Source: a virus. From it: a stretch of DNA of 32,822 nucleotides. Positions 1 through 15,020 of this stretch are shown here, piece after piece. The DNA lies in the IMG/VR virus record IMGVR_UViG_3300031672_000649, positions 1-32,822 of that record. The stretch is one strand, 5' to 3'. The translations under genes were made by a program, and so were the position numbers. Within the stretch, counting starts at the first letter, position 1. The number at the start of each line of letters is the position of its first letter. Below the pieces are notes generated by a model. The model was not told the DNA's origin. It made no database searches and saw nothing but the letters and a program-made list of their open reading frames with translations.

Positions 1-1023
1 ATGAACGAGCAAGACTTCATACGATTTATAACAATTAAGAAGAGCTTAGCTACAAATTCCATACGAATGTGTAGAGTACGGTTCGTCATCATTAACAAAT
101 GGCTTGCAGAAAATAATAAAGAGATTAGCAAAGACACTGTAGAAGAGTTCTTTTATTACCTCAAACAAAAAGGATTAAATAATAATACCCTCAATACCTA
201 TTTTTTCACGCTTCGCTACATTCAAGACTATTTACTAGATAGAGGCATAGAAAATAGGTTCTTTGAAAGCTTTACTGCTTTTACTAAAGTTAAACCAACT
301 ATTATTATTCTTACGCCCGAAGAAATAGAAAAGATATTAAGCATACATTTAGAATATGGGAGATTCCGAACGTTTTCAGCTCAAGAAACGACACGAAAGC
401 TTGATCTTACTCATAGTACGTTTTGCATGTTTCTTGCCTATACAGGCTGCCGTTTTGACGAAGCTGCATCCCTAAAATTAAAACTACTTGATTTATCAGC
501 TGGAAAAGCAACATTTGTTGAAACGAAAAACAAAGAAATTCGTCATGCTCACATAACTGAACCACTTATATCAAGGTTAAAATTACTCACAGAAGGAAAG
601 GGGCAGGAAGATTTAGTATTCACAAGCCTCCTTGGTGGGAAAGTACACGCAGAAGATTTCAGAATTGATCTTATTAAACGAGCAAGGCTTGCAGGGGTAG
701 TAAAACGAGTACACCCCCATCTTTTCCGTCATAGCTTCGCAACTCAGTTGCTTATAGCAGGAGTTGATCTTACCATGGTTGCTTCTTTACTTGGACATAA
801 GGACATTCAAACAACATATGATAACTATGTTCATTTAGCAGATGAAACTCTTAAAAAAGCAACCTACAGACACCCACTAGTCCGGAAGAACATTGATCCG
901 AAGGAAATTATCAAAATGATGGAAGATTTAATCGAAAGCTTTAAAATTGATACTGATGAGCGATTTAACTATAAATTTGAAAGAGGTTCAAACTCTCTCG
1001 CATTTACTTTGTTTGTGAAATGA
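1..1023 (+). CDS. Tyrosine recombinase (phage/Xer-type integrase)
   Basis: This is a site-specific DNA recombinase of the tyrosine family that would integrate or excise the element. The N-terminal part (about residues 1-95) looks like the helical SAM-like core-binding domain. The catalytic domain (about 100-300) has Arg151 in TGCR, a lysine near 176-178, HPHLFRHS giving His240 and Arg243, LGH giving His266, and Tyr276 in YDNY as the likely nucleophile. At 340 residues it is of normal length and looks intact; residues 300-340 form an extra tail. It begins on the first base of the window, so its promoter and any adjacent att site are outside. Its 3' end overlaps the convergent small gene by about 20 nt. 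Position at the edge of a phage-like region suggests it is the prophage integrase; a chromosomal XerC/D role cannot be excluded. Confidence 0.9.
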
Positions 1024-1354
1024 TGCGTTTCCGCTTATTTTCCTCTTGCTTTATAATTTTTTCAACAGTTAATGAACTTATTTGAAACATTTTTGCAATC
1101 GCATTAATTGACAAATGCTTAGTTTTATCCATATATAGTTCATGCATTCGCCTATTCCTTTTGGGATAATTCTTTTTTCTTCTGTTTTCTCTGCCTTTTT
1201 CTTCGTACCATTGCTTAAAGTATTCCTTTATTTGAGCTTTATGCTTTTGCATATAGCGTTTTTGCCTGATTTTCTTCCAACATACTCGACAATACCGATT
1301 CTTCCTATTCATTTCTGACTTAAGCTTATCTTTCTTGCAGCCTCGACAAAGCAT
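1004..1354 (-). CDS. Small zinc-ribbon / helix-turn-helix protein
   Basis: This is a 116-residue, very basic protein. The N-terminus has two CxxC knuckles (Cys3/Cys6 in CRGC and CRVC near residues 22-25), a classic zinc-ribbon spacing. A long Lys/Arg-rich helical stretch follows, then a likely HTH around residues 80-103 ([20 protein letters not shown]). DNA binding is the natural inference. Similar small Cys4 plus HTH proteins occur near phage recombination or HNH endonuclease genes, but no HNH catalytic histidines are visible, so I do not call a nuclease. It is convergent with the integrase and overlaps its 3' end by about 20 nt. No clear Shine-Dalgarno or promoter is seen. Function unknown; it could regulate the integrase. 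Confidence 0.65.
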
Positions 1355-1409: not shown

Positions 1410-1437
1410 TTGTAAAACTATTAAAATACGTTATAAT
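1410..1437 (+). promoter_or_regulatory. Sigma70-like promoter of the structured RNA
   Basis: TTGTAA (1410-1415) and a consensus TATAAT (1432-1437) are separated by 16 nt. Transcription would start near 1444, at the GTGGGGC that forms the 5' strand of the closing helix of the RNA. No open reading frame follows, so the promoter must serve a non-coding transcript. Confidence 0.6.
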
Positions 1438-1684
1438 CGGAATGTGGGGCTGGTAATAACACACTACTTTGTGCCTAGATGCTCCTGAGGTGGTACTCAT
1501 ACAAAGGTAAAAAGGCGTATCTAGCGAGGGCGAAATAGGCCGTTCCCGAATACGAGTCTAGGAATATCACGAAATAGCACCACCGCTCCACTGCAATTTT
1601 TTGCCCAACTGGGTATTGTGCGGATAGCCTAGACCAGTGGCAAATTACGATGAAGTATGTCTACCTTCCAGCTTAAATTGACAC

Positions 1685-1713
1685 TTGAAAATTGTAATAT
1701 AACGTGGTAGAAT
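1685..1713 (+). promoter_or_regulatory. Second promoter-like sequence before the terminator
   Basis: TTGAAA (1685-1690) and TAGAAT (1708-1713) are separated by exactly 17 nt. A start near 1720 would give only a very short RNA made of the terminator hairpin, so this is either fortuitous in AT-rich DNA or makes a tiny transcript. Confidence 0.3.
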
Positions 1714-1723
1714 ATAAACAGTT

Positions 1724-1758
1724 AAGAGGGACTGCGGATGCGGACCCTCTTTTTATTT
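1724..1758 (+). terminator. Intrinsic terminator
   Basis: AAGAGGG (1724-1730) pairs with CCCTCTT (1745-1751) around a 14-nt loop that holds the tandem repeat TGCGGA TGCGGA. A T-rich tract (1750-1758) follows on the plus strand. It ends the transcript coming from the structured RNA and overlaps the stop end of the convergent DUF3800 gene. On the minus strand no U-tract follows, so it works in one direction. Confidence 0.7.
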
Positions 1759-2508
1759 GGGCAAAATAGTTAATCCAGAGCTTGCATGCTTTCTTCTTTT
1801 TCTAAATTTCTTTTCTAAGACTACATACTCAACTCCATGACCAGGCTTTCTCGGTATTTCTAAAATATGTCTTCCAATAGGAGTAGCTACCAAATCTGCT
1901 ATTTGTAACCCTATTTCATTTGCAGATTTAGGAGTCATAGATAAGCTTTCGATCTTTTCTTTAATATCTGAACCTTTTACTTTCTCTGTCCCGTTTATTT
2001 TTGTATTTAACCATGCTAATTCCAATTGATTATCCAAAACGCTGTTCCTTCTCTCAGCAATTATTTTCCCCCGCTCACCTTTTGGCAACGACAAAACAAA
2101 TTCATTAAGTAAAATATCAAAGGATAATAGGTAAGGATCAAGGGCTGATACTCCATATTTTTCAAGATGAGCAGGTTTTTTAATCACACAGGCAACTAAT
2201 GTAAATTCGATTTCTTCTAAAAGCGTATTCAATGCCTGATAAAACTTTACTCTAAAATCCGGATCACTGAGCTTATCATACCTTCTTTCTTTTGTTTTCA
2301 AAGGTCGTGTCATCTCTAAGGTATGTAAAATAATATCCTCGGAGCTAAAAAAAGATTTCTTAAATTCATTAAATTTTTTAATGACATCTTCTTGATAATA
2401 CTTTTCATCAAATATACAGCCAACAAGTACAAATATTGGATAAGTGGGATCAATCTTCTGAGGATCTAAATTATGATGTCCAGACTCATCAAGAAACATT
2501 AATTTCAT
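1753..2508 (-). CDS. DUF3800 domain protein
   Basis: This 251-residue protein has the marks of the DUF3800 family: FLDESGHHNL at residues 5-14, a hydrophobic strand following it, and the C-terminal LQIADLVATPIGRH (about 202-215). The family is thought to have an RNase H-like fold with acidic residues in DES and AD as a metal site; its biochemical role is not established. Such genes are common in phages and defence islands and several are linked to structured RNAs, as here. A TATAAT (2517-2522, minus strand) lies only 8 nt before the ATG, so the mRNA may be leaderless. It follows lexA with a 21-nt gap. The sequence looks intact. Confidence 0.75.
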   Translation of the reverse strand: MKLMFLDESGHHNLDPQKIDPTYPIFVLVGCIFDEKYYQEDVIKKFNEFKKSFFSSEDIILHTLEMTRPLKTKERRYDKLSDPDFRVKFYQALNTLLEEIEFTLVACVIKKPAHLEKYGVSALDPYLLSFDILLNEFVLSLPKGERGKIIAERRNSVLDNQLELAWLNTKINGTEKVKGSDIKEKIESLSMTPKSANEIGLQIADLVATPIGRHILEIPRKPGHGVEYVVLEKKFRKRRKHASSGLTILPK

Positions 2509-4540: not shown

Positions 4541-5101
4541 TTACTTGAAGGGATTTATTAATCCCCATTGTATCTGAGTCTCTCTATTATAATATACTAA
4601 TCCTCCGTCAGGTAGATTGTCTATGTGAAATTGAGAAACGGCATCTGTTAAAGGATTTTGTTTGAACGGTATATGAATTACGCGAGCAGTATTATTATTG
4701 ATTCTATCAGCAAAAGCTTTTGGCCATAAATGGGAAAGTTGAGCTGGTGCTAAAATTGAATCATAGCCAGTATATGCAGTAATTATGGGAATACTGCATT
4801 CATCCACTGCGTATGCTATTTCAAATGGTATCCAATCCGTATCTTGCCAAGTGGTATTACCAATTATAAGAATCATATTTTTTGAACTATTTAAACGAGT
4901 AATCAGGGAGCGTTTAAGCGTTTCTCTTGCGCTTGTATCCCTCACAGAACTTGTTTTTTCGTGACTATTAATGAAATGAAATTCACTTTCTTCTCGCACC
5001 TTCCACATCTTCAAGGTATTGTAGTATTTCATATCTGAGGCAGTGGGATCAGATGTCCCGTTTGCATGAAATGCAATATATGTACCGTTTCTATATGCCA
5101 T
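4541..5101 (-). CDS. thsB: TIR-like ThsB-type protein (second copy) of type II Thoeris
   Basis: This 186-residue protein is a TIR/MTH538-like (DUF1863) domain of the ThsB type. ThsB proteins sense phage infection and turn NAD+ into an ADP-ribose-derived signal. It parallels the first TIR gene: TYIAFHANGT matches TYVAFDGDND, FHFINSHE matches FNFYNAHD, SSVRDTSARETLKRSL matches NSARDTSTEESIKSQL, and MILIIGNTTW precedes the active-site region WIPFEIAYA with Glu94. The catalytic Glu is kept, but the surrounding residues differ from copy one (PWEIELA), so the two may sense different phage proteins, as multiple ThsB copies are thought to do. It begins 3 nt after the TM-Macro gene. Cytosolic; no signal peptide. 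Confidence 0.85.
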   Translation of the reverse strand: MAYRNGTYIAFHANGTSDPTASDMKYYNTLKMWKVREESEFHFINSHEKTSSVRDTSARETLKRSLITRLNSSKNMILIIGNTTWQDTDWIPFEIAYAVDECSIPIITAYTGYDSILAPAQLSHLWPKAFADRINNNTARVIHIPFKQNPLTDAVSQFHIDNLPDGGLVYYNRETQIQWGLINPFK

Positions 5102-5104
5102 ATT

Positions 5105-5956
5105 TTAAAAATTTTGCAAGAAATCTTCTAAGTCTAACATGTTAACCTTTTCTAGATTTTCACTATGAATAACAATTGTGAGCTGTTCAGAAATTTTCTT
5201 TTTTCTGGATGCCAGAATAAATGAAGAGAGAATAAGTTTTATGAGATTTGAATGTGAAGCTTCTCCAATTCTTGCCAGATCAGAGCCCAATACAGCCATT
5301 GCAACTTTCTCACGCTGCCCCTTTAAGCGGATTTCCTCCCACAACATTTCAAGACTTTTTGTAAGCATTGAAATATCAGATTGAGCCTTAAGGTCATTAG
5401 CCATAAGGCTATATGCCGAGCAAAAATACTTTTTCGTACCAACTGACAGCGTTGCAACAGTTCCAATAGGATAGCGCATGTTTTTACCTTGATGTTTTTG
5501 TGTGTCTCGAGTTGGAGAACTGGAACTCAACGCCGTTGCAAGACTCGCATCTAAACTCGTGCGGTCATCACCATAGACATTCGCAAGAAATTGTCCCTGA
5601 ATTGATTTCGCTTTAATTATATTTCCCTTTTCGGTATCAAATGCATCACTCATGCCTATAACAAGGTTTGTTTCTTCTTTAAATAAATCCCCTATTTTTA
5701 TCACAATTTTTGTGTCTGGCTCCACAAGGTAGCGTGAAATCTTCAACTTGGGAAATATTTTTATCAATGCCCAAATTAAAGATAGTAAGCTAATACCAAG
5801 AAGACCTTTGTATCCTAAAGCGAAAACACTTGGGAAAAAAATATCTAAAATTCCAAGTAATATCGCCAATGCTCCAACAGCCTGAAGAAAAGATGAGAAT
5901 AATTTCCTAAGTGTTTTCCAAGAAAAAATAGTTGTTTTGTAAGCTAAGAGATTCAT
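5105..5956 (-). CDS. thsA: TM-Macro effector (ThsA-type, DUF6430-like) of type II Thoeris
   Basis: This 283-residue protein has two transmembrane helices (about 22-41 and 48-67) followed by a cytosolic macro-like domain (about 83-270). Recognisable segments are KIVIKIGDLFKEETNLVIG near 83-101, GKNMRYPIGTVATL, and HSNLIKLILSSFILA with a final strand QLTIVIH. The architecture is that of type II Thoeris ThsA, in which the macro domain binds an ADP-ribose-derived messenger from the TIR proteins and the membrane part kills or arrests the infected cell. The start codon overlaps the stop of the upstream TIR gene by 4 nt (ATGA), and the next TIR gene starts 3 nt downstream. It carries no SIR2 domain, ruling out type I ThsA. 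Confidence 0.85.
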   Translation of the reverse strand: MNLLAYKTTIFSWKTLRKLFSSFLQAVGALAILLGILDIFFPSVFALGYKGLLGISLLSLIWALIKIFPKLKISRYLVEPDTKIVIKIGDLFKEETNLVIGMSDAFDTEKGNIIKAKSIQGQFLANVYGDDRTSLDASLATALSSSSPTRDTQKHQGKNMRYPIGTVATLSVGTKKYFCSAYSLMANDLKAQSDISMLTKSLEMLWEEIRLKGQREKVAMAVLGSDLARIGEASHSNLIKLILSSFILASRKKKISEQLTIVIHSENLEKVNMLDLEDFLQNF

Positions 5957-6456
5957 AAGCCAAGGTCTTCATAAACAGAATCCTTGTAAGAATAGTTTCC
6001 TGATTTTTTGTCTTTGCCTAACAGGTATGAAGTTGGGAAATTATCAAGTGCATATTGGATAATCTTTACATTAAAGGAAACGTGTATTGTATAAATTGTG
6101 CTTCCAATTGCTGTAGGGCATAGAGTTGAGTCGTGGTCACGCTTTTTATTAAGATTCACAACTATAATCGGAATATCTTTTTTCCTCGCAAGCTCTATCT
6201 CCCAAGGAACAAATTTACGTAAATATTTAGTATTATCACCTACCAACAAAATCATTTGTTTTGCATTTGCCATGCGCTCCCGAAGTTGAGATTTAATTGA
6301 TTCCTCAGTACTGGTGTCGCGGGCACTATTCAGATCGTGTGCATTATAGAAGTTGAAATCCATATTTACGTTGGACTTCCATGCAGTCATCAGACGATAT
6401 GCCCACATATCGTTGTCTCCATCAAATGCAACATAAGTTTTATTTTTATATGACAT
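5953..6456 (-). CDS. thsB: TIR-like ThsB-type protein (first copy) of type II Thoeris
   Basis: This 167-residue protein from the ATG at 6456 is a close match to ThsB proteins as I know them: KTYVAFDGDNDMWAYRLM near residues 6-23, NAHDLNSARDTS near 38-49, MILLVGDNTKYLRKF, then VPWEIELARKKDIPI with the catalytic Glu86, and HVSFNVKIIQYALDNFP near the end. It would make the cyclic or histidine-type ADP-ribose messenger that opens the TM-Macro effector. A longer frame to 6477 uses a TTG that lies in the U-tract of a terminator, so the internal ATG is preferred; AAGAG lies about 9 nt before it. It is the first gene of a four-gene operon (TIR, TM-Macro, TIR, Nudix) and is preceded by a structured leader. 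Confidence 0.9.
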   Translation of the reverse strand: MSYKNKTYVAFDGDNDMWAYRLMTAWKSNVNMDFNFYNAHDLNSARDTSTEESIKSQLRERMANAKQMILLVGDNTKYLRKFVPWEIELARKKDIPIIVVNLNKKRDHDSTLCPTAIGSTIYTIHVSFNVKIIQYALDNFPTSYLLGKDKKSGNYSYKDSVYEDLGL

Positions 6457-6475
6457 ATTTTGAATCTCTTTAAAC

Positions 6476-6568
6476 AAAAAAACGAACTCATTATAAGTTC
6501 GCTTGGGTGGCAGTCATTTCTGTCATCCAGGCGCAACTTTGCGCCTTTGAAATTGCTGTCATATTATA
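6476..6568 (-). promoter_or_regulatory. Structured leader with terminator before the Thoeris operon
   Basis: On the minus strand a TATAAT (6568-6563) is followed by three consecutive hairpins. H1 pairs GGCGC with GCGCC (6530-6545). H2 is a long stem with two A-C mismatches (6505-6528). H3 pairs CGAACT with AGTTCG (6483-6501) and runs into seven U residues (6482-6476), only 20 nt before the first TIR start codon. This is either an attenuator or riboswitch-like leader, or a free small RNA of about 80 nt. It could simply terminate the upstream nuclease operon, but the intervening TATAAT argues for a local role. Confidence 0.5.
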
Positions 6569-6625: not shown

Positions 6626-7297
6626 CTAGAAAGGATGAGTAGTATTTGTGGTATATTTGCAGTAAGCACATTCTGGGAAAGAATCAGGAATATCGCCATC
6701 TAATATTTTCTTAGCTTCGAATATCTTATTTTCTACCCAATTATCATCTCCATCATATGGTTGTACTTTAATATCAAAACTAAGTTTTCCATCTGCAAAT
6801 CCATTATCTTTATTTACTCTGCAATATACAAAGTAACCACGATTTTGCACTTTAAATCCATTTTGCCTTAGTATCCATTGATAAATCTCCATTTGTCTTT
6901 TGTAACTGTCGTAAAGCTCTCCTTCTTTCGCGCCAGAGGCTTTATAATCGACTACAATAAGGTTTCCTTCGGAATCAACCCATATATCATCAACTGCTCC
7001 GAAAATAAGGAAATCTGTTGCTTTATGGTGATATTGTATGCCTGTAAAATTGTTTCTCCATTTATCAATATCCTCATGCATGTAGGGAATCGCATCGATT
7101 CCTTCTCTAACTATTAAGTAGTGTGCAGTTCCATTAGCTCGATGGACATCAAATTCTTTTTTAAGGATAAAGTCGACTGCGTTGTTTATGGTGTAAGGAG
7201 CGCCAAATGGACGAGCAATACCTTTTCCGGCATAAAACCAGAAACAACGGGGGCAATCGAAAAGTAATTCTATTTTTGATCGAGACAATTTAATCAT
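6626..7297 (-). CDS. Cas4/RecB-like PD-(D/E)XK nuclease with probable Fe-S cluster
   Basis: This 223-residue protein has the PD-(D/E)XK core of the RecB/Cas4 family: Asp103/104 in GAVDDIW, Asp117 and Lys119 in VVDYKA, and the supporting QxxxY motif (Gln135, Tyr139). Four cysteines bracket the fold, Cys15 and Cys18 in CPRC and Cys210 and Cys213 in CAYC, as in Cas4 and AddB-type iron-sulfur nucleases. It would cut or process DNA ends. There is no CRISPR array or other cas gene here, so it is not a CRISPR Cas4 in context. It lies 47 nt behind the DUF262-HNH gene on the same strand and probably belongs to that modification and restriction operon. Confidence 0.8.
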   Translation of the reverse strand: MIKLSRSKIELLFDCPRCFWFYAGKGIARPFGAPYTINNAVDFILKKEFDVHRANGTAHYLIVREGIDAIPYMHEDIDKWRNNFTGIQYHHKATDFLIFGAVDDIWVDSEGNLIVVDYKASGAKEGELYDSYKRQMEIYQWILRQNGFKVQNRGYFVYCRVNKDNGFADGKLSFDIKVQPYDGDDNWVENKIFEAKKILDGDIPDSFPECAYCKYTTNTTHPF

Positions 7298-7344
7298 GCT
7301 TATTTTTGCTAAAGCTATTTATTAACTCGGTAAAATTTTTCGGT

Positions 7345-8436
7345 TTATATTTTACCTTTTCGTCGGTTATCATCTCTACACAGCATCTGGCAGTTCTCGG
7401 CAGTAGTTTTTCCACCATCAATCCAAGGAGTGATATGATCTGCCTCCATCTCCTCTATTTTAAATTTCTTACCACATTTTGAACAAACACCTTTCTGCCG
7501 TTCATAGGCTTCTCGCTTCGTTTTGTCGGTAAACTCTCGAATTGACAAGTATTTTTCCTGTTTAGTCAACATATATGGATAAATACCAGATTTTTTTGTT
7601 ACATCCTCATCTTGCATCAACACTTTGCTTTCAGCTTCCAATTTGTTAGGATCTAGATTTGTATCCTTAAATTCATTGTATAATTTACCCCACTCAACGC
7701 TACTCATTTCTCGGCGATAATTCATGAAAGTTTGCTTCACCCATGCGATCACATTCTGGAAATAGACCCACAATTCATCAGCATTTAAGTCATGCTGGTG
7801 TTTCGCCATATAATCTTCTATTTTGCCGTCATTAATCCACGAAAGCGCCGTTTCTAAATATTCTTGGCGAATTGGCGAGCCGCTAACATATTGTCCACCG
7901 TCATTCGCCAGTAGATACGCTGCGCAACCAGTTTTGCTAAATTTCAATTTAGCGTCACTCAACCATGATCCGGTATAAACGGCATTTCGCAGCTCTTGGT
8001 CGGTTAATTTTTCACCAGCGATATTTATAATCCTAAACCAGTCCAATCGTTCTTTGTCAGTTCCCTCGCAGAAGTAAATCATTAATTCATAATCTAAAAT
8101 TTGGTTTTGTTCTTCGTCGGTTAAGTTATGAAAAAACCGATCGTTTAGTGAAAAATCGCTGTTTACATATTGCCCAATGCTTATGGTGCGTTGCTGACCG
8201 TCCAAAACCTCAAAATTTCCTTGGTCTGTTTTAACCCAGTACATAACATTAAGAGGAAAAGCGTTTTTAATCGTTTCAATTACTGCATCACGCTGTTTAC
8301 CGGTGTAGACAAATTCACGTTGATATTTTGGACGAATGTCAAGTTTACCGCCATAAGCCACCACGCCTTCTTCGGCACTGTCTTTGTAGCCAGAGATTAC
8401 TTCGCGAACTTTGATCCGATGCAAGTCGATTTTCAT
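7345..8436 (-). CDS. DUF262 and HNH endonuclease (GmrS/SspE-like restriction protein)
   Basis: This 363-residue protein has an N-terminal DUF262 (ParB/sulfiredoxin-like NTPase) domain with the two signature motifs PKYQREFVY (about 37-45) and LDGQQRTI (about 78-85). The middle is helical. The C-terminus carries a Cys-supported HNH nuclease: CSKCGKKF, then EADHITPWIDGG with Asp333-His334, and ENCQMLCRDDNRRK. DUF262-nuclease proteins include GmrSD and SspE, which couple NTP binding to cleavage of modified or unmodified phage DNA. It starts 2 nt after the methyltransferase stop, so the two are translationally coupled and likely act as a methylation-guided restriction pair. The cleavage site cannot be predicted. 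Confidence 0.85.
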   Translation of the reverse strand: MKIDLHRIKVREVISGYKDSAEEGVVAYGGKLDIRPKYQREFVYTGKQRDAVIETIKNAFPLNVMYWVKTDQGNFEVLDGQQRTISIGQYVNSDFSLNDRFFHNLTDEEQNQILDYELMIYFCEGTDKERLDWFRIINIAGEKLTDQELRNAVYTGSWLSDAKLKFSKTGCAAYLLANDGGQYVSGSPIRQEYLETALSWINDGKIEDYMAKHQHDLNADELWVYFQNVIAWVKQTFMNYRREMSSVEWGKLYNEFKDTNLDPNKLEAESKVLMQDEDVTKKSGIYPYMLTKQEKYLSIREFTDKTKREAYERQKGVCSKCGKKFKIEEMEADHITPWIDGGKTTAENCQMLCRDDNRRKGKI

Positions 8437-8438
8437 AA

Positions 8439-9602
8439 TTATTTCTCTACTTTCTGGTTTCTTATCACAATTCTTGCATAAAGTATAGACAAAAATCCAT
8501 CTGCATTATCGGCTTTATAGTAAATATCGTCTGGTTTTGTTGATGAAAGCAGCGTCGACCGCGTATTAGCTTTGCTCCCATTTGTGATAGAACCATCCTT
8601 GTTAACTTGTTTTGGGTTTATATACCGCTTTGTTGGTCTCGACTCAAACTCATCTCGCCCAGATGTAATACCCAAAATCTCAAATTGATCGGGATTGTAT
8701 TTGTCAAGAAACGTAATCGGCACACCCATGGGTTCATAATAATCAGAAGGAATATCACTGTACTTATTCACATTTATTGCATCATAATTGTCATATGTCG
8801 GATATTCTTGAGGAGAATATTTCTTATATAAAACTAACTTCTCGTGACGCTTTACGGTATCCAAATTGGTAAACCACACAATACTGCCCATGCTGAAATA
8901 CTTCACCCCATTTTCAATTTTTATTCTAGACTCCGTCGGTATATTGTAATCCATAGGAACCTGAAACCACTTTGTTCCACCGTTATCATAACCTAACCAA
9001 AGCTTATTTTCTTTAATGAACTTGAAGACATCCCTATATGTTATGGCATTTTGGCTACCAAGAATCAAAAACTTTTTATCGTATTCTACGAGCTGTGCGA
9101 CATACTCGCGAAACAGAGAAAATGGCGGGTTAGTCACAACTATATCGGCCTCTTGGAGTAGATCGATGCACTCTTTGCTTCTGAAGTCGCCATTGCCATT
9201 GATAGGTGTGGCAGTGTTCTTGTCATGCTTTAGCAGATACCTCACATCACTTAGATCCACTGCGCCGTCGCCGTCGCCGTCCGGAACCTCATTAATCTCT
9301 ACCTTAAATGGCTGCTTGCCATTAGGTTTTAAACCTTCTACTTCAAATAGTGGCAGCTGCATTCCTGCAATCGGTGATTTAGTATAACTAGTGGTAATGA
9401 GTTTTTTTAATCCGAAGTGATTGAAATTGTTCGCAAAGTATTTAAAAAAATTACTCTCGTACGGGTCGTCGCAGTTGCAAAATATGACCTTACCGCGGAA
9501 TTGGTCCTTGTAGTGTTTTAGCTCATTTTCAATATCAACGAGCTGAGTATAAAACTCATCTAATTTTTGCTGTTTTGCGGTATGTAAATTTTTTTGCGCC
9601 AT
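8439..9602 (-). CDS. EcoRI-type adenine-specific DNA methyltransferase
   Basis: This 387-residue protein matches the EcoRI methylase family. It has FCNCDDPYESNFFKYF near residues 41-56, GDFRSKEC near 138-145, and the N6-adenine catalytic motif NPPF at 158-161 within DIVVTNPPFSLF. A glycine- and aspartate-rich loop (about 107-120) resembles an EF-hand but occurs in family members. It would protect DNA by adenine methylation; specificity for GAATTC is only a family-based guess. The start is supported by GAGGAG about 9 nt upstream of the ATG, and a TATACT (9628-9623) lies just before that. It heads an operon with the DUF262-HNH nuclease and the Cas4-like nuclease. Confidence 0.85.
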   Translation of the reverse strand: MAQKNLHTAKQQKLDEFYTQLVDIENELKHYKDQFRGKVIFCNCDDPYESNFFKYFANNFNHFGLKKLITTSYTKSPIAGMQLPLFEVEGLKPNGKQPFKVEINEVPDGDGDGAVDLSDVRYLLKHDKNTATPINGNGDFRSKECIDLLQEADIVVTNPPFSLFREYVAQLVEYDKKFLILGSQNAITYRDVFKFIKENKLWLGYDNGGTKWFQVPMDYNIPTESRIKIENGVKYFSMGSIVWFTNLDTVKRHEKLVLYKKYSPQEYPTYDNYDAINVNKYSDIPSDYYEPMGVPITFLDKYNPDQFEILGITSGRDEFESRPTKRYINPKQVNKDGSITNGSKANTRSTLLSSTKPDDIYYKADNADGFLSILYARIVIRNQKVEK

Positions 9603-10191: not shown

Positions 10192-10405
10192 GACACAAGT
10201 AAATTTACGCTCAAAATTTGGAAGAAGACTAAGAGAACTAAGGAAGGCTGCAAAAATGTCTCAAGAAGCATTGGGATTTAAAGCAAATATCCATCGTACT
10301 TATATTGGCTCAATTGAAAGAGGCGAACAAAATGTTTCGATTGATAACATACAAAAGTTAGCTAAAGCGTTAAAAGTCGAGGCTAAGGAACTTTTCAATT
10401 TTTAA
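10190..10405 (+). CDS. Xre/Cro-family HTH regulator (C-protein-like)
   Basis: The ATG at 10190 gives 71 residues, almost all one HTH-XRE domain: FGRRLRELRKAAKMSQEAL, then KANIHRTYIGSIERGEQNVS with the recognition helix, and IQKLAKALKVEAKELF. This size and layout match restriction-modification controller (C) proteins and small phage repressors. A TTG start 39 nt upstream is rejected because it would place the inverted-repeat operator inside the gene. The operator overlapping the ATG suggests autoregulation. It is convergent with the reverse transcriptase gene, the stops overlapping by 4 nt. It might control the nearby methyltransferase operon, the DGR or the prophage; the sequence does not decide. 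Confidence 0.8.
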   Translation: MTQVNLRSKFGRRLRELRKAAKMSQEALGFKANIHRTYIGSIERGEQNVSIDNIQKLAKALKVEAKELFNF

Positions 10406-11454
10406 TTAGTCATCAAATATAAAACCAGATTTTTCAACTCCTTTGATAGTTCATAGGCATCTGCGTGAGAAAGATAACCCAAATATGATTGTAATGCTTG
10501 ATTTAGCGAATCATAGCTTAATTTATTTTCTCGAAATAACTGCACTTTTTTATTGATTTTCCTAAAAATTCTTCTTTTTGTCTTTGTTCTTGGCACAATA
10601 AAATAAGGGAAAATAATATATCCAAGAAAATCTATACCTAAATAGTAATTACTTATGATAATCTTATCGGGATGGAGAGTTAATTTAAGCTCAAGTTTAA
10701 GAAATTTATCGATTTTTGATAATACTTCTTTCAAATATTCTTGATCCTCCGAGAGGAAAACAAAATCATCAGCATAACGCATATAATATTGAATTTTAAG
10801 CTCATTCTTAACAAACTGATCTAAAGGGTTAAGATAGATATTTGCGAAAAACTGAGAGGTCAAATTACCAATAGGCATACCTTTAGGCTCATCTAAATCA
10901 AAAGTATAATCAGACTGAAAGCTACCAACAATTTCACTTAATAGCCACAAAAAATCGTTATCTTTAATTTTTTCAGAAAGAAGTTGTAAAAGGATTTTCT
11001 GGTCAACTGTAGCAAAAAACTTTTTAATATCACATTTAAGTACATATATAGCAGAAGTATTATTCTTGCTTGCTTTACGCAACATTTGAGCAAATTTTTC
11101 AACTGCTTTATGAGTTCCTTTATTTTTTCTACAAGAATAAGAATAGGCATAAAATGTGGGATCAAATACATTTTCAAGGGTGCTACTTACTAAATGATGA
11201 ACTACCCTATCCCGAACCTTTGCCTTTGAAATATGTCTCACTTTTGGATCTCTCACATAGAATGATTTATATCCTCCATGTTTGTAGGTCTTATTTTTTA
11301 ACTCTTCATTCAACAAGAATAAATTATCTTCTAAATATCGACCGAACTCGACTACATCTTTTTTCTTTTTCTTTCCTTGAATAAAACCATCCCATGCTTG
11401 GAAAATAGCCTCAAGTGTGGTAATATCTGAATAAATATTATGCCAGATTTTCAT
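10402..11454 (-). CDS. DGR reverse transcriptase
   Basis: This 350-residue reverse transcriptase would copy the TR RNA with errors at adenines. Motifs in order are RDRVVHHLV with FDPTFYAYSYSCRKNKGTH (motifs 1-2), KCDIKKFFATVD (motif 3/A), PKGMPIGNLTSQFFANIYLNPLD (motif 4/B), YMRYADDFVF with the catalytic YADD (motif 5/C), and FLGYIIF. The SQ in motif 4 is the mark that separates DGR enzymes from group II intron enzymes, which have SP. There is no maturase or endonuclease domain. I chose the ATG at 11454 (MKIWHNIY) over that at 11499, since homologues begin close to this point. The 5' end overlaps the divergent avd gene by 15 nt, and the TR and VR lie on the same strand upstream. Confidence 0.93.
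   Translation of the reverse strand: MKIWHNIYSDITTLEAIFQAWDGFIQGKKKKKDVVEFGRYLEDNLFLLNEELKNKTYKHGGYKSFYVRDPKVRHISKAKVRDRVVHHLVSSTLENVFDPTFYAYSYSCRKNKGTHKAVEKFAQMLRKASKNNTSAIYVLKCDIKKFFATVDQKILLQLLSEKIKDNDFLWLLSEIVGSFQSDYTFDLDEPKGMPIGNLTSQFFANIYLNPLDQFVKNELKIQYYMRYADDFVFLSEDQEYLKEVLSKIDKFLKLELKLTLHPDKIIISNYYLGIDFLGYIIFPYFIVPRTKTKRRIFRKINKKVQLFRENKLSYDSLNQALQSYLGYLSHADAYELSKELKNLVLYLMTN
11398..11426 (+). promoter_or_regulatory. Candidate avd promoter
   Basis: TTGGAA (11398-11403) and TAATAT (11421-11426) are 17 nt apart. Transcription would begin near 11433, leaving a leader of about 7 nt before the avd ATG. It lies inside the antisense reverse transcriptase gene. Confidence 0.4.
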
Positions 11455-11817
11455 GATCTTCAAACAATTAATCGAACTTTTGACTTCCCTATCTTTCAAA
11501 AGACATACGAAACATATAAGCTTTTTTACAGTTATTTAGTCAATTTCCCTAAAAAAGATAAATATACACTTGGACAGCGATGCGAAAACGCACTTCTTGA
11601 TTTTCTCGAAGCAATTACTTTGGCAGGTAGCCTATCAAAAGCTGAAAAACTTCCTATATTACAAAAGGCGAGTGCAAAACTAGATTTAGCAAAAATATTC
11701 ATTCGACTATGTAAAGACTTAAAAATTCTTGATAATAAGAAATACTTAGCACTTGAATCATCTCTCCAAGAAATTGGCAAAATGCTTGGAGGGTGGATTA
11801 AATCCTCATCCACCTAA
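11440..11817 (+). CDS. avd: Avd, four-helix-bundle accessory protein of the DGR
   Basis: Avd binds the reverse transcriptase and the TR RNA as a positively charged pentamer and is needed for mutagenic copying. This 125-residue protein has the family landmarks: FPIFQKTYETYKLFYSYLVNFPKKDKYTLGQR near 16-47, ENALLDFLEAI, KLDLAKIFIRLCKDLKIL, and the closing EIGKMLGGWIKS. The only ATG is at 11440. It is encoded opposite to the reverse transcriptase, TR and target, which is unusual, since most DGR cassettes are co-directional. A bidirectional terminator follows 8 nt after its stop and separates it from the TR. The first 15 nt overlap the reverse transcriptase start. Confidence 0.92.
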   Translation: MPDFHDLQTINRTFDFPIFQKTYETYKLFYSYLVNFPKKDKYTLGQRCENALLDFLEAITLAGSLSKAEKLPILQKASAKLDLAKIFIRLCKDLKILDNKKYLALESSLQEIGKMLGGWIKSSST

Positions 11818-11825
11818 AAATAAGA

Positions 11826-11857
11826 CCTGCTCTTGATAGAGCAGGCCATTTTCTTTT
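11826..11857. terminator. Bidirectional intrinsic terminator between avd and TR
   Basis: CCTGCTC (11826-11832) and GAGCAGG (11839-11845) form a 7-bp stem with a 6-nt loop. T-rich tracts follow on both strands (ATTTTCTTTT on plus; TTATTTTT on minus). It ends avd on the plus strand and the TR transcript on the minus strand, only about 25 nt after the TR. Confidence 0.8.
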
Positions 11858-11870
11858 AGGAAAAGATAAT

Positions 11871-11992
11871 ACTACCGCAGCACGGAAACCGATGTTGTCA
11901 TTCGAGTTGCCAGGATGATCCCAGTTGACGTTCGACGCACCACCGTTGTCAGAGTTACCGACCATCAAACGGTTCGAGTCACCGGACTCCCG
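11871..11992 (-). repeat. DGR template repeat (TR)
   Basis: This 122-bp segment is nearly identical to the 3' end of the AAA+ gene (VR, 12424-12545). The two differ at 14 positions, and at every one the TR has T on the plus strand, so A in the coding sense. Of the 25 such adenines 14 are changed; none of the 97 other positions is. The adenines sit mostly in AAC codons, which cannot mutate to stops by adenine replacement. Read in the target frame the TR gives GNSDNGGASNVNWDHPGNS and then IGFRAAVV. The match ends abruptly at 11871. The TR-spanning frame at 11798-12043 is not treated as a gene. Confidence 0.96.
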
Positions 11993-12098
11993 TGTGTATT
12001 GCCCCTTTTCTTTCCTGAGATACGTACATCTCATTATTACCACCGATAGCTAATAGCTCTTAATCAAATGTTTTATTCGTACCAAGATTGTCTTTAGA

Positions 12099-12104
12099 TT
12101 ATAA
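12099..12104 (-). promoter_or_regulatory. Possible -10 box for the TR RNA
   Basis: A consensus TATAAT on the minus strand lies about 107 nt before the TR. It is the best candidate for starting the template RNA, since nothing else with a promoter look lies between target gene and TR. The missing -35 box keeps confidence low. Confidence 0.35.
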
Positions 12105-12127
12105 AGATTCTCTCCTGTATTTTACTT

Positions 12128-12145
12128 GGCTCAATAAATTGAGCC
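12128..12145. repeat. Perfect inverted repeat, 8-bp arms
   Basis: GGCTCAAT-AA-ATTGAGCC would fold into a hairpin on either strand. No U-tract follows in either direction, so it is not a standard terminator. It lies just upstream of the possible TR promoter. Confidence 0.55.
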
Positions 12146-12344
12146 TTCGAAAAAGGACAAGTAGTTTCATCTTCCTTTTTGCACTCTTTTGATAGGCGTA
12201 CCCGTCAAAACTCAGGCGACTAGAAAAGAAGAGAGATTTCGTGAAACACAGGCAGTACCCATGTTTACATTAACAAAATCTACTGTGGAGTATAGAAAAT
12301 TAACAGAAGAAAATCAAGGTCAAATGCTATTTATTAACATCATA

Positions 12345-12360
12345 TTATATTCGAATATAA
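12345..12360. repeat. Perfect 16-bp palindrome downstream of the VR
   Basis: TTATATTCGAATATAA reads the same on both strands. It lies 63 nt beyond the end of the VR on the coding strand. Hairpins or cruciforms downstream of the VR help target recognition in known DGRs, though usually closer to the VR end than this. Confidence 0.5.
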
Positions 12361-12410
12361 GTTTAAAAAGACCAAAACAAAAGAATCAAAAGAACCAAAG
12401 ATTCAAGCGA

Positions 12411-15020
12411 TCAAGAACCCAGAACTACCGCAGCACGGAAACCGATGTAGCCATTCGAGCGGCCAGGATGATCCCAGTCGACGTACGACGCACCACCGCG
12501 GCCAGAGCTACCGACCAACAAACGGCGCGAGTCACCGGACCCCCGATATTCATCTTCTACCCACTCATAAGTATCAGTCTGTCCCCATCCTTCACGATTT
12601 CCTAATAAATTCCATTCAGCAGCTGTCAATAATCTTAAGTCTACTGAAGGATGGTCTATTCCTGCACGATCTAACCCAGCCTGCGTTTTGATATAACCTT
12701 TTGCCGTATTCAGTTCCTTTTTTGCTTTAGTCCATGATACATTAAAACGATCATTAAGTCCCATTGCCGTTGTTAAGGCAGAGCTTTGATATTTTTGTCC
12801 ATAGCTTGGTTTTGGCATAGTTTCAACAGCCATCCATTGACCAGGTAGATTGGGGAAATTAACATTATTTGCCTTCACTTGCTCCCAAAACCATTCTCGT
12901 AAGTTTCTAGTATTTGAGTGATCAGCTTTTTCTCGATCTGATAATGATTCATAGGGTTTCCAATTAGGGTAGAGGGCATTTAGTTCTTGTAAGTATTCTC
13001 CAACACTCTTAGTACCTAAACTGCTTTGTAGTAAATCTAGGTTAGGAACGAAACGCAATTCCATACCAAGAACCTCTAATCTCCTCTGTATTTCAGGGGT
13101 AACATAGCCAGGCAAAGGCGCTATATCCACTTGAGCACCTAATACATCTTGCCAGGCTCTTTGCTCGGCAATTTGTATTTCCGACATTGCCTCACGCCTT
13201 CTTTCTCTGGCAGGAGTAGAACTCACTCCCATTGGATTTTCATTACTTAGTACTATCTCTCCTGCCATTTGTGAAGGAAGGATATAACCTTTTTCTTGAT
13301 CTTCAATCGTCACATGTACATCAGGTGAAGCATTTGTAGTTAAACCATAAGCGTGAAGAACTTTTTGCAATGTTTTTCGTTCTTCCGGAGTACTCAATGT
13401 TTTTGGATCTTGAATAAACTCACCAATCTTTGCTGCCATATATTCTTCAAATTTTTGTCCTCTGGCAGAAGCTAATTCCCACTCACTAAAGAGTTTAAAC
13501 AGTGTTCCTGGATCAAGAAAGCTTGTGTTCAACGTAGTCTCAGTGTTACCTTGTGGATCTATGCCAAGTAAGCTTTTCATTTCTGTTGAGAAGCCATCAA
13601 AGTCACGATTATGGATTCTTTGCATCATTTCGGCTGCTTTAGTCAATCTCTCAACATATTCAGCTTCAGACACGCTGAGTTTTAATACTCCGCTTTCTTC
13701 AATTAACATTCCACGAATAATATCATTCATTTCTTGAGCAGGCATATAACTTACTTCTATTCCTGTCAGTTCGCGCAAAATTGCAGGATCCATATCTTCA
13801 CGCTGCTTAGTTCTTTCGTCTTTAGGATTTCCAGTAAAAAGTTCAATAAAGTTAGGAGTAATTTCATGCACCTCTCCATTAAAACCAGGTATATGCACTT
13901 TCTCTCCTGGTTTTGCACCCATAAGATATTTCATAGAGAGCTGGGTACGCGTCGAACCACCTGTAAATTCTTCATGCACTAACCCAACTTGCTTTTCTAA
14001 GGCTCTTGGATATGGACCAGGTTTCGTACCACTTTGCACACGACCTTCTTCATCTTCATATAATTCTCTGTATCCAAAAATATCACGAGGTGTTGTGCCT
14101 TCATGCCAGGGTACAATTTCATATCCCCCTGTTAAATCATTCAAAGCATAAAAAGCAAGCTGTGTTTTTCCAGTACCCGTTGAGCCAACTAGAAAAATTT
14201 TCTTACCCGAAAGTGCTTCACGAGTTATACGATCTATAAGTTGTTCACGAGAGGGGGTCATGACAAATCCCTTTTCTTTAAGTTCTTTTTTATACTCTAA
14301 TAACTTTTGTGTTTCTAGATAACCAACGGTTGAGGGAGAGGCGGTTTCTTCAATTCCTCTTTTTTGTAACTCCAACTCATCTAATTTTCCTTGAAAAAGA
14401 CCAATTTGATCAGCAGAGCTTTGAGTAAGTTTTCCAGCCTGTTGTTTACTGTCTAAGTATCTTCTATAAATTGCCTGTCTAAGCTTAGCAGTAACACGAT
14501 CAATATCTCTAACTTCTCGCATAGGACGACGTGCGACTTGGTATTGAGAAAATTCTGAATCGAATTCTTGTTCAAATAGCTCTCTTACCTGAGGAAATGC
14601 TAACAGATCAGACAATCTCTGTCTTACTAACTCTTGATGTTCTGAATTACCATTTAGGGGGTTCTCTCCATCTGTATCCTCTTGAGAGACAACAGTATGA
14701 TCAGAACCCGGCTTTTGATGAGGTTTTAATATAACATCCAACTGCCTTTCTAAACTTTGCAGTCCTTCACCTTCACCGAGTTTTATATCAGGCACACTTC
14801 GTTCAGGCGCACGATGATATTCCTCAAGATACCCTAGCACTGCAAAACATTTGCTTTGTACTTCTGGTTGAGCTAATTGTGTAGGATTATCAGGCCTAGA
14901 CTCGTTTGGCATAAACCTTCGAAACGAAAGCGGTGCCAACCGCGAACGAGCTTGAGCAATTCGCTGTGGTGAAAATGATTCTACATTTGCTGCATCTTCT
15001 GCCATATATCTTTCTATCAT
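12411..15020 (-). CDS. DGR target: MoxR-like AAA+ ATPase with C-terminal FGE/C-type-lectin domain
   Basis: This 869-residue protein has a charged N-terminal region (1-250), an AAA+ ATPase domain of MoxR/dynein-like type (about 255-560) and a C-terminal formylglycine-enzyme-like C-type lectin fold (about 690-869). The Walker A is GSTGTGKT at 279-286, the Walker B is LVHEEF at 347-352, and sensor 1 is likely Asn398 in FTGNP. The lectin part shows RLLTAAEWNLLGNREGWG and ends in DWDHPGRSNGYIGFRAAVV, with the last 43 residues covering the VR. ATP-driven remodelling is the likely activity, and the lectin tip the binder of varied ligands. It starts 16 nt after the vWA gene, so the two form an operon. 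A second ATG at 15005 is an alternative start; neither has a strong Shine-Dalgarno. Confidence 0.88.
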   Translation of the reverse strand: MIERYMAEDAANVESFSPQRIAQARSRLAPLSFRRFMPNESRPDNPTQLAQPEVQSKCFAVLGYLEEYHRAPERSVPDIKLGEGEGLQSLERQLDVILKPHQKPGSDHTVVSQEDTDGENPLNGNSEHQELVRQRLSDLLAFPQVRELFEQEFDSEFSQYQVARRPMREVRDIDRVTAKLRQAIYRRYLDSKQQAGKLTQSSADQIGLFQGKLDELELQKRGIEETASPSTVGYLETQKLLEYKKELKEKGFVMTPSREQLIDRITREALSGKKIFLVGSTGTGKTQLAFYALNDLTGGYEIVPWHEGTTPRDIFGYRELYEDEEGRVQSGTKPGPYPRALEKQVGLVHEEFTGGSTRTQLSMKYLMGAKPGEKVHIPGFNGEVHEITPNFIELFTGNPKDERTKQREDMDPAILRELTGIEVSYMPAQEMNDIIRGMLIEESGVLKLSVSEAEYVERLTKAAEMMQRIHNRDFDGFSTEMKSLLGIDPQGNTETTLNTSFLDPGTLFKLFSEWELASARGQKFEEYMAAKIGEFIQDPKTLSTPEERKTLQKVLHAYGLTTNASPDVHVTIEDQEKGYILPSQMAGEIVLSNENPMGVSSTPARERRREAMSEIQIAEQRAWQDVLGAQVDIAPLPGYVTPEIQRRLEVLGMELRFVPNLDLLQSSLGTKSVGEYLQELNALYPNWKPYESLSDREKADHSNTRNLREWFWEQVKANNVNFPNLPGQWMAVETMPKPSYGQKYQSSALTTAMGLNDRFNVSWTKAKKELNTAKGYIKTQAGLDRAGIDHPSVDLRLLTAAEWNLLGNREGWGQTDTYEWVEDEYRGSGDSRRLLVGSSGRGGASYVDWDHPGRSNGYIGFRAAVVLGS
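12424..12545 (-). repeat. DGR variable repeat (VR)
   Basis: This is the 122-bp copy of the TR at the 3' end of the AAA+ gene. Eleven codons differ, for example AAC to CGC, TAC, GAC or AGC, GAC to GGC, and ATG to TTG, all through TR adenines. The segment from 12424 to 12448 is the first 25 identical bases and is the likely initiation-of-mutagenic-homing end, being GC-rich. The stop codon is 11 nt beyond it. Confidence 0.96.

Follow-up and report, generated by a model that had tools for sequence, protein, structure and literature searches.

Two convergent RNA elements beside a DUF3800 gene of a temperate phage and their possible role in restraining an RNase HII-like protein

Small RNAs encoded beside DUF3800 genes were reportedly described as motifs in a 2017 paper. 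To our knowledge they are still orphan motifs without a known function, and they are spread over several Rfam names. Among described systems, type III toxin-antitoxin systems such as ToxIN offer a comparison: the RNA lies upstream and has repeats, and the protein has the ToxN fold. The DUF3800 unit is alike in combining a short, promoter-driven, structured RNA with a nuclease-like protein and in its frequent location in defence regions and on phages or plasmids. It is different in that the RNA is convergent rather than upstream, has no repeats, and goes with a protein of the RNase H rather than the ToxN fold. The DUF3800 family has been described as having an RNase H fold in which the catalytic residues are rearranged, and has been tied to putative non-coding RNAs, to Cas12a2 and to VI-F loci (PMC10910872, PMC12669027).

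The locus considered here belongs to a viral contig of 32,822 bases, the whole of which was analysed and is called the window. An integrase, an S24 repressor-like protein and a SRAP protein are encoded near its left end, and the locus sits on a temperate phage. The region from 1410 to 1758 is flanked by a small gene (1004-1354, minus strand) and by a convergent DUF3800 gene (1753-2508, minus strand; Pfam 6e-16) that encodes a protein of 251 amino acids. The initial annotation had drawn one structured, gene-free RNA of about 310 nt in this region, with a promoter, end-pairing, a pseudoknot, a terminator and a DUF3800 neighbour. Part of this was borne out. There are no ORFs of 60 amino acids or more inside 1445-1750, a -35/-10 pair is present on the plus strand at 1410-1437 (TTGTAA, 16 nt, TATAAT), the end-pairing TGGGGC/GCTCCA is there, and so is the neighbour. 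The single RNA fared differently: its pieces of sequence are there, but they belong to a region with two RNA elements, RNA1 and RNA2.

RNA1 (1445-1590, plus strand) matches the DUF3800-V family (RF02964) in cmscan at 42.1 bits, above the curated gathering cut-off of 37.4. A search with the Rfam DUF3800 models had been proposed as a check, and it gave this match; when all 4227 Rfam families were used, RF02964 was the sole one reaching its cut-off in the window. The E value is 6e-6 when the whole window and all families are counted, and 7.6e-8 for the local stretch. In the alignment TGGGGC pairs with GCTCCA, so that the proposed end-pairing is the outer helix of the family, and CCTAGAT (1474-1480) pairs with GTCTAGG (1556-1562) to form P3. 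The initial annotation had given the latter strand another partner, at 1628-1634. A run of T at 1596-1602, just past RNA1 and abutted by no stem, could be a weak 3′ end of this RNA.

RNA1 has in common with RF02964 the outer stem, a GYAAUAAYAC-like segment, P2/P3, a promoter upstream and the proximity of a convergent DUF3800 gene. It departs from the family in that this DUF3800 belongs to another clade and RNA2 lies in between, RNA1 being about 160 nt from the DUF3800 gene and ~130 nt upstream of RNA2. At the apex, a 62-nt insertion replaces the family core GUGYUYCC..UCC..GG.UGGC..AGC, which is present in all 23 RF02964 copies collected and absent from RNA1. Two models of our own, R2 (from 16 RF02964 members) and R3 (from 17), do not match RNA1. 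Because the core is missing and these models give no match, RNA1 is RF02964-like by the Rfam threshold but atypical. In the fold of lowest energy the CCTAGAT strand pairs inside the insertion, and stability relative to shuffled sequences is not clear for 1444-1592 (z -1.31) and does not stand out for 1444-1760 (z -0.21). Four loci (L558, L559, L560 and L562) have, by eye, the GUGCC..GCUCC and GAG..GGAA-UA context of RNA1, and their P3 reads CCUCUGG/CCAGAGG against CCUAGAU/GUCUAGG in RNA1. The difference hints at compensatory change in a comparison made by eye, of strands that MAFFT put out of register. Most likely, RNA1 is an additional RNA of the same kind, which was kept from another DUF3800 unit or remained as a relic of it. 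Fifty viral records with related DUF3800 genes gave no RF02964 match above the cut-off, two pattern scans of viral contigs for RNA1-type sequences returned chance matches only, and blastn of 1400-1760 against phages and plasmids gave no matches.

The RF02964 copies themselves come from three phylum-wide samples, with phylum labels taken from the centre genomes: the family was found in 11 of 285 genomes of the phylum of G052 (Omnitrophica), in 5 of 246 of that of G066 (Planctomycetota) and in 4 of 289 of a further phylum sample. It was found in none of 301 genomes of the phylum of G055 (Chloroflexota/Chloroflexi), where the controls were silent as well. In 20 of the 23 copies the RNA and a DUF3800 gene converge, the gene belonging to the 'LDESGDLGFDF' clade and being truncated in five cases; mostly, only a few bases separate the U-tract of the RNA from the DUF3800 stop codon. 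Sigma-70-like promoters resembling TTGACA-16..18-TATAAT generally lie upstream, at the place where RNA1 has its own, with a mean score of 9.2 compared to 7.19 (sd 0.18) for shuffled sequences; promoter scores here are consensus counts. Since RNA1 scores above the family cut-off and convergence holds in 20 of 23 copies, the earlier suggestion of an RNA-protein system is supported.

RNA2 (1719-1758, plus strand, with the 5′ end placed from its promoter) is a predicted mini-RNA with a variable stem of 7 bp, an A.A mismatch, a CTGC/GCGG cap and a U-tract. Its hairpin and U-tract occupy 1724-1758, the cap reads ACTGC-GGAT-GCGG, and the DUF3800 stop codon (1753-1755) falls in the U-tract. It is preceded at 1685-1713 by TTGAAA, 17 nt ending in TGG, and TAGAAT, a predicted promoter with an extended -10 that scores 10/12. 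The layout of gene and hairpin recurs beside the nearest DUF3800 relatives in genome contigs (L208-L212, 42-49% identity): five of five have, on the strand opposite to the gene and abutting its stop codon, a short hairpin with the cap ACTGC-GTA-GCGG. RNA2 and these five RNAs fold alike, with a stem of 6-11 pairs, an A.A or A.G mismatch, the CUGC/GCGG cap and a U-rich end. Their outer stems differ in sequence yet stay paired, with mismatches in L210. The RNA2 pattern was met neither in 20000 shuffles nor elsewhere in the record; its layout, strand and hairpin are found in nearest relatives from several phyla. RF02964 is absent at the five loci, and RNA2 has no match in Rfam above cut-off. Viral contigs hold at least 120 matches to a 14-mer of the RNA2 type, none with DUF3800 among the matches listed. 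A terminator had been claimed at this place, and there is indeed a hairpin with a U-tract; it is more than the end of one RNA, having its own -35/-10 and being conserved alone beside related DUF3800 genes. Because the hairpin recurs beside relatives and has these promoter elements, the 'shared terminator' is better taken as a conserved RNA element with promoter-like sequence.

A sister type of RNA, of ~60 nt and likewise convergent, was found at 149 of 169 other DUF3800 loci in genomes, phages and plasmids, a count made with patterns derived from the same loci. Most DUF3800 genes of this broad clade, from many bacterial phyla and often inside restriction loci, have such a convergent RNA. It takes the form AAATGGACTGGG-loop-CCCGGTCGGCG followed by a terminator hairpin, and hairpin 1 ends at a median of 37 nt before the DUF3800 stop codon. 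A natural pair is provided by L007, on plasmid p2METDI of Methylorubrum extorquens DM4, where the RNA is predicted to start with AAGTGGAT. In an alignment of 50 sister RNAs, both sides change in 17 of 21 pairs. The cells are paired in 93.8%, compared to 80.0% after shuffling, none of 500 shuffles reaches any of the measures, and sliding the alignment lowers the pairing to 37-58%. Rfam 15 has no family that covers the sister RNA. BjrC68 (RF02353) was rejected as a name for it: the scores are 20-26 bits against a cut-off of 39, and the true BjrC68 loci (L300-L304) are without DUF3800. sX14 (RF02233) gave one weak match (33.6 vs. 80 bits) and was set aside.

RNA2 resembles the sister RNA in position, strand, promoter and the order of hairpin and U-tract. 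The two differ in architecture: the RNA2 group (RNA2 and the five RNAs that fold like it) is built on a single hairpin with a GCGUAGCGG-type cap, whereas the sister RNA has a hairpin plus a separate terminator. The covariance model of the sister RNA (R1) recognises nothing in the window, L208, L209, L211 and L212, and its 6.3 bits in L210 fall elsewhere in the locus. Because R1 does not match the RNA2 group, the kinship can be drawn only from where the RNAs lie, how they are laid out and how they fold; RNA2 counts as a sister type in place and shape, and not in sequence. RF02964 and the uncatalogued ~60-nt RNA likewise share the convergent site beside RNase HII-like proteins, the strand and the possession of a promoter, which amounts to a common anatomical rule.

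Could RNA2 and the ~60-nt RNAs be mere bidirectional intrinsic terminators between convergent genes? That the U-tract ends at the DUF3800 stop codon would fit, as would hairpin 2 of the sister RNA, a terminator by form. A terminator does not need a promoter, however, and the sister RNAs have one: the score at the right distance is 8.44 compared to 6.50 (sd 0.09) in shuffled sequences, about 20 sd higher, and the signal is absent on the other strand (6.3). Nor does it account for the first hairpin, which is conserved in near-invariant sequence and keeps a U.G wobble (at one pair, U.G in 38 RNAs, C-G in 10 and C.A in 2). The pairing of hairpin 1 is biased by strand, 98.9% on the RNA strand vs. 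78.3% on the complement, and in the RNA2 group the ACTGC-GTA-GCGG cap is conserved. We consider terminators alone an unlikely explanation.

The DUF3800 protein belongs to PF12686 (59.9 bits, cut-off 21, residues 4-214) and shows no notable difference from the family, the nearest relatives being those at 42-49% identity. Its AlphaFold2 model has a mean pLDDT of 91.9, and the best match among solved structures is RNase HII (1eke_A; Z 11.3 over 167 residues, 3.6 Å, 11% identity). Of 136 sequences, 99% or more keep the four acidic residues D7, E8, E152 and D205, and the same holds for K111, K194, R154 and H62. The likeness to RNase HII lies in the predicted fold and in a DESG found where strand 1 ends, which recalls DEAG, the RNase HII motif. 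The differences are the low identity, an extra C-terminal part and the associated RNA gene. DUF3800 is RNase HII-like by its modelled fold, a likeness that does not extend to sequence membership. The fold and the conserved residues agree with the published RNase H view (PMC10910872, PMC12669027). A PADLOC match of DUF3800 to AbiI was not significant (E 0.01) and was discarded. In genome contigs, the upstream co-directional neighbour is a type I specificity subunit in 11 of 40 cases and carries a ResIII helicase domain in 6 of 40, as raw counts. Three DUF3800-RNA units (L210, L326 and L555) are themselves part of type I restriction loci, with hsdS, hsdM or hsdR genes on one side or on both.

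We favour the view that nuclease gene and RNA form a convergent module, with the RNA binding the nuclease and probably restraining it, a proposal whose chances we place just short of even. The anatomy of the module (layout, strand, promoter-like sequences, covariation and fold class) is well supported. We infer that the RNA is transcribed and that it binds and restrains DUF3800. The protein would be an RNase HII-like nuclease, dependent on metal and specific in its binding of the hairpin. The RNA, being short and apparently constitutive, would keep the enzyme inactive or in a loaded RNP, much as an antitoxin does. Loss or titration of the RNA in a conflict with phage, for example when a neighbouring restriction system is blocked, would then free the nuclease. 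On the present phage, the module might serve in competition with other phages or in prophage retention. A role in conflict is favoured because of the restriction-gene neighbourhood, and the same genes beside homologues suggest, only indirectly, the phage defence that the initial annotation had raised as a possibility. The frequent place behind type I specificity or restriction genes leads us to suggest a guard nuclease under RNA control in that defence. A wider generalization may also hold, one that we would sooner doubt than assert: DUF3800 genes of the broad clade would, in many phyla, be obligately paired with a tiny, uncatalogued, convergent RNA that has its own promoter. The pair would make up a widespread module for defence or addiction, with an RNase HII-like protein under the control of the RNA, often placed in restriction operons, and the DUF3800 RNA motifs described separately would be other versions of it.

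The RNA might instead be an activating cofactor or a guide, with DUF3800 as an RNA-directed nuclease. The fold is of the RNase H type, as in RNA-guided nucleases, and Argonaute PIWI chains are among the structural matches of DUF3800 (Z about 8). Some Cas12a2 and type VI-F loci carry DUF3800 proteins (PMC10910872, PMC12669027). The RNAs, however, are 40-65 nt long and consist almost wholly of a hairpin and a terminator, and homologues show no variable, target-like segment between them, which makes a guide or cofactor improbable. The small size, the near-invariant hairpin, the lack of a variable segment and the constitutive-looking promoter are why we prefer a binding partner to a guide.

How exclusively the sister RNA goes with DUF3800 can be judged from a run of R1 over 249 genomes of Pseudomonadota and 198 of Bacteroidota that were not chosen for DUF3800. 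Matches of at least 37.9 bits were counted as strong (the background was below 32), and adjacency was scored by tblastn plus by eye. Strong matches face DUF3800 in 6 of 8 cases in Pseudomonadota by tblastn, with a seventh (L326) added by eye, and in 5 of 13 in Bacteroidota by tblastn; of the weak matches, 0 of 29 do so. Among Xanthomonas relatives, the RNA is present in 17 of 31 genomes, with DUF3800 at 13 of 15 loci. Strong copies also stand alone without DUF3800, chiefly in Bacteroidota, so the link is strong and not exclusive. The stand-alone loci include L363, L365, L366, L357, L359-L361 and L364, three of which are convergent with the same dsbD-like gene, and one stand-alone copy is, by eye, near a CBASS-type nucleotidyltransferase. 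R1 provides a means to find more such RNAs.

REP hairpins are substrates of RAYT transposases, and the present hairpin could similarly be a DNA or RNA substrate of DUF3800, with the stand-alone copies as dispersed offspring. The strong copies in Bacteroidota genomes, the presence of up to two copies per genome and the occurrence of DUF3800 genes on phages and plasmids are in keeping with this. Each genome has few copies, however, and the upstream promoters have been kept; we find mobility distinctly unlikely and retain an RNA that binds the nuclease as the preferred reading.

The pseudoknot proposed earlier (GTCTAGG/CCTAGAC with CCACTG/CAGTGG) has all four strands at their places, the 3′ strands falling at 1628-1640 in the spacer between RNA1 and RNA2 (1591-1680), but it is no more frequent than chance. 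An equally good abutting H-type pseudoknot occurs in 177 of 5000 dinucleotide-preserving shuffles and in 46 of 643 other 237-nt stretches of the record. Its strands also clash with P1 and P3 of RF02964, which use the same strands. Because the self-complementary CTAG is present four times in the region (at 1475, 1521, 1558 and 1629), many alternative pairings are possible. The spacer has no homologue in the pattern scans of viral contigs or by blastn in phages and plasmids. One RNA of ~310 nt with seven-base end pairing, an H-type pseudoknot and a terminator is highly improbable and was rejected: every strand is present, and read-through from 1444 to 1758 is conceivable because no good terminator was found in between, but the named helices are at chance level and conflict with the Rfam helices, the joined structure lacks a homologue, and the supposed terminator is a separate conserved mini-RNA with its own promoter and homologues. 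A remnant of a DUF3800 C-terminus in 1640-1676 (YDEVCLP) was also dismissed, with tblastn E values of at least 2.6 and a strand opposite to that expected.

The record carries other elements as well. On the minus strand, a Thoeris-like cluster (4541-6477) has a ThsA-like macro-domain protein between two ThsB-like TIR proteins. Further on (6626-9602, minus strand), an EcoRI-type adenine methyltransferase adjoins a GmrSD_N-HNH protein, which PADLOC classes among type II restriction enzymes; the stretch 6626-7297 (minus strand) encodes a Cas4-like nuclease. A complete diversity-generating retroelement spans 10402-12545 and 12411-15020 and includes a reverse transcriptase and a bAvd-like accessory protein. 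Its template repeat lies at 11871-11992 and its variable repeat at 12424-12545, at the 3′ end of a gene for an AAA-domain protein of 869 amino acids. All 14 of the 14 differences between the two repeats, read on the minus strand, are at template adenines.
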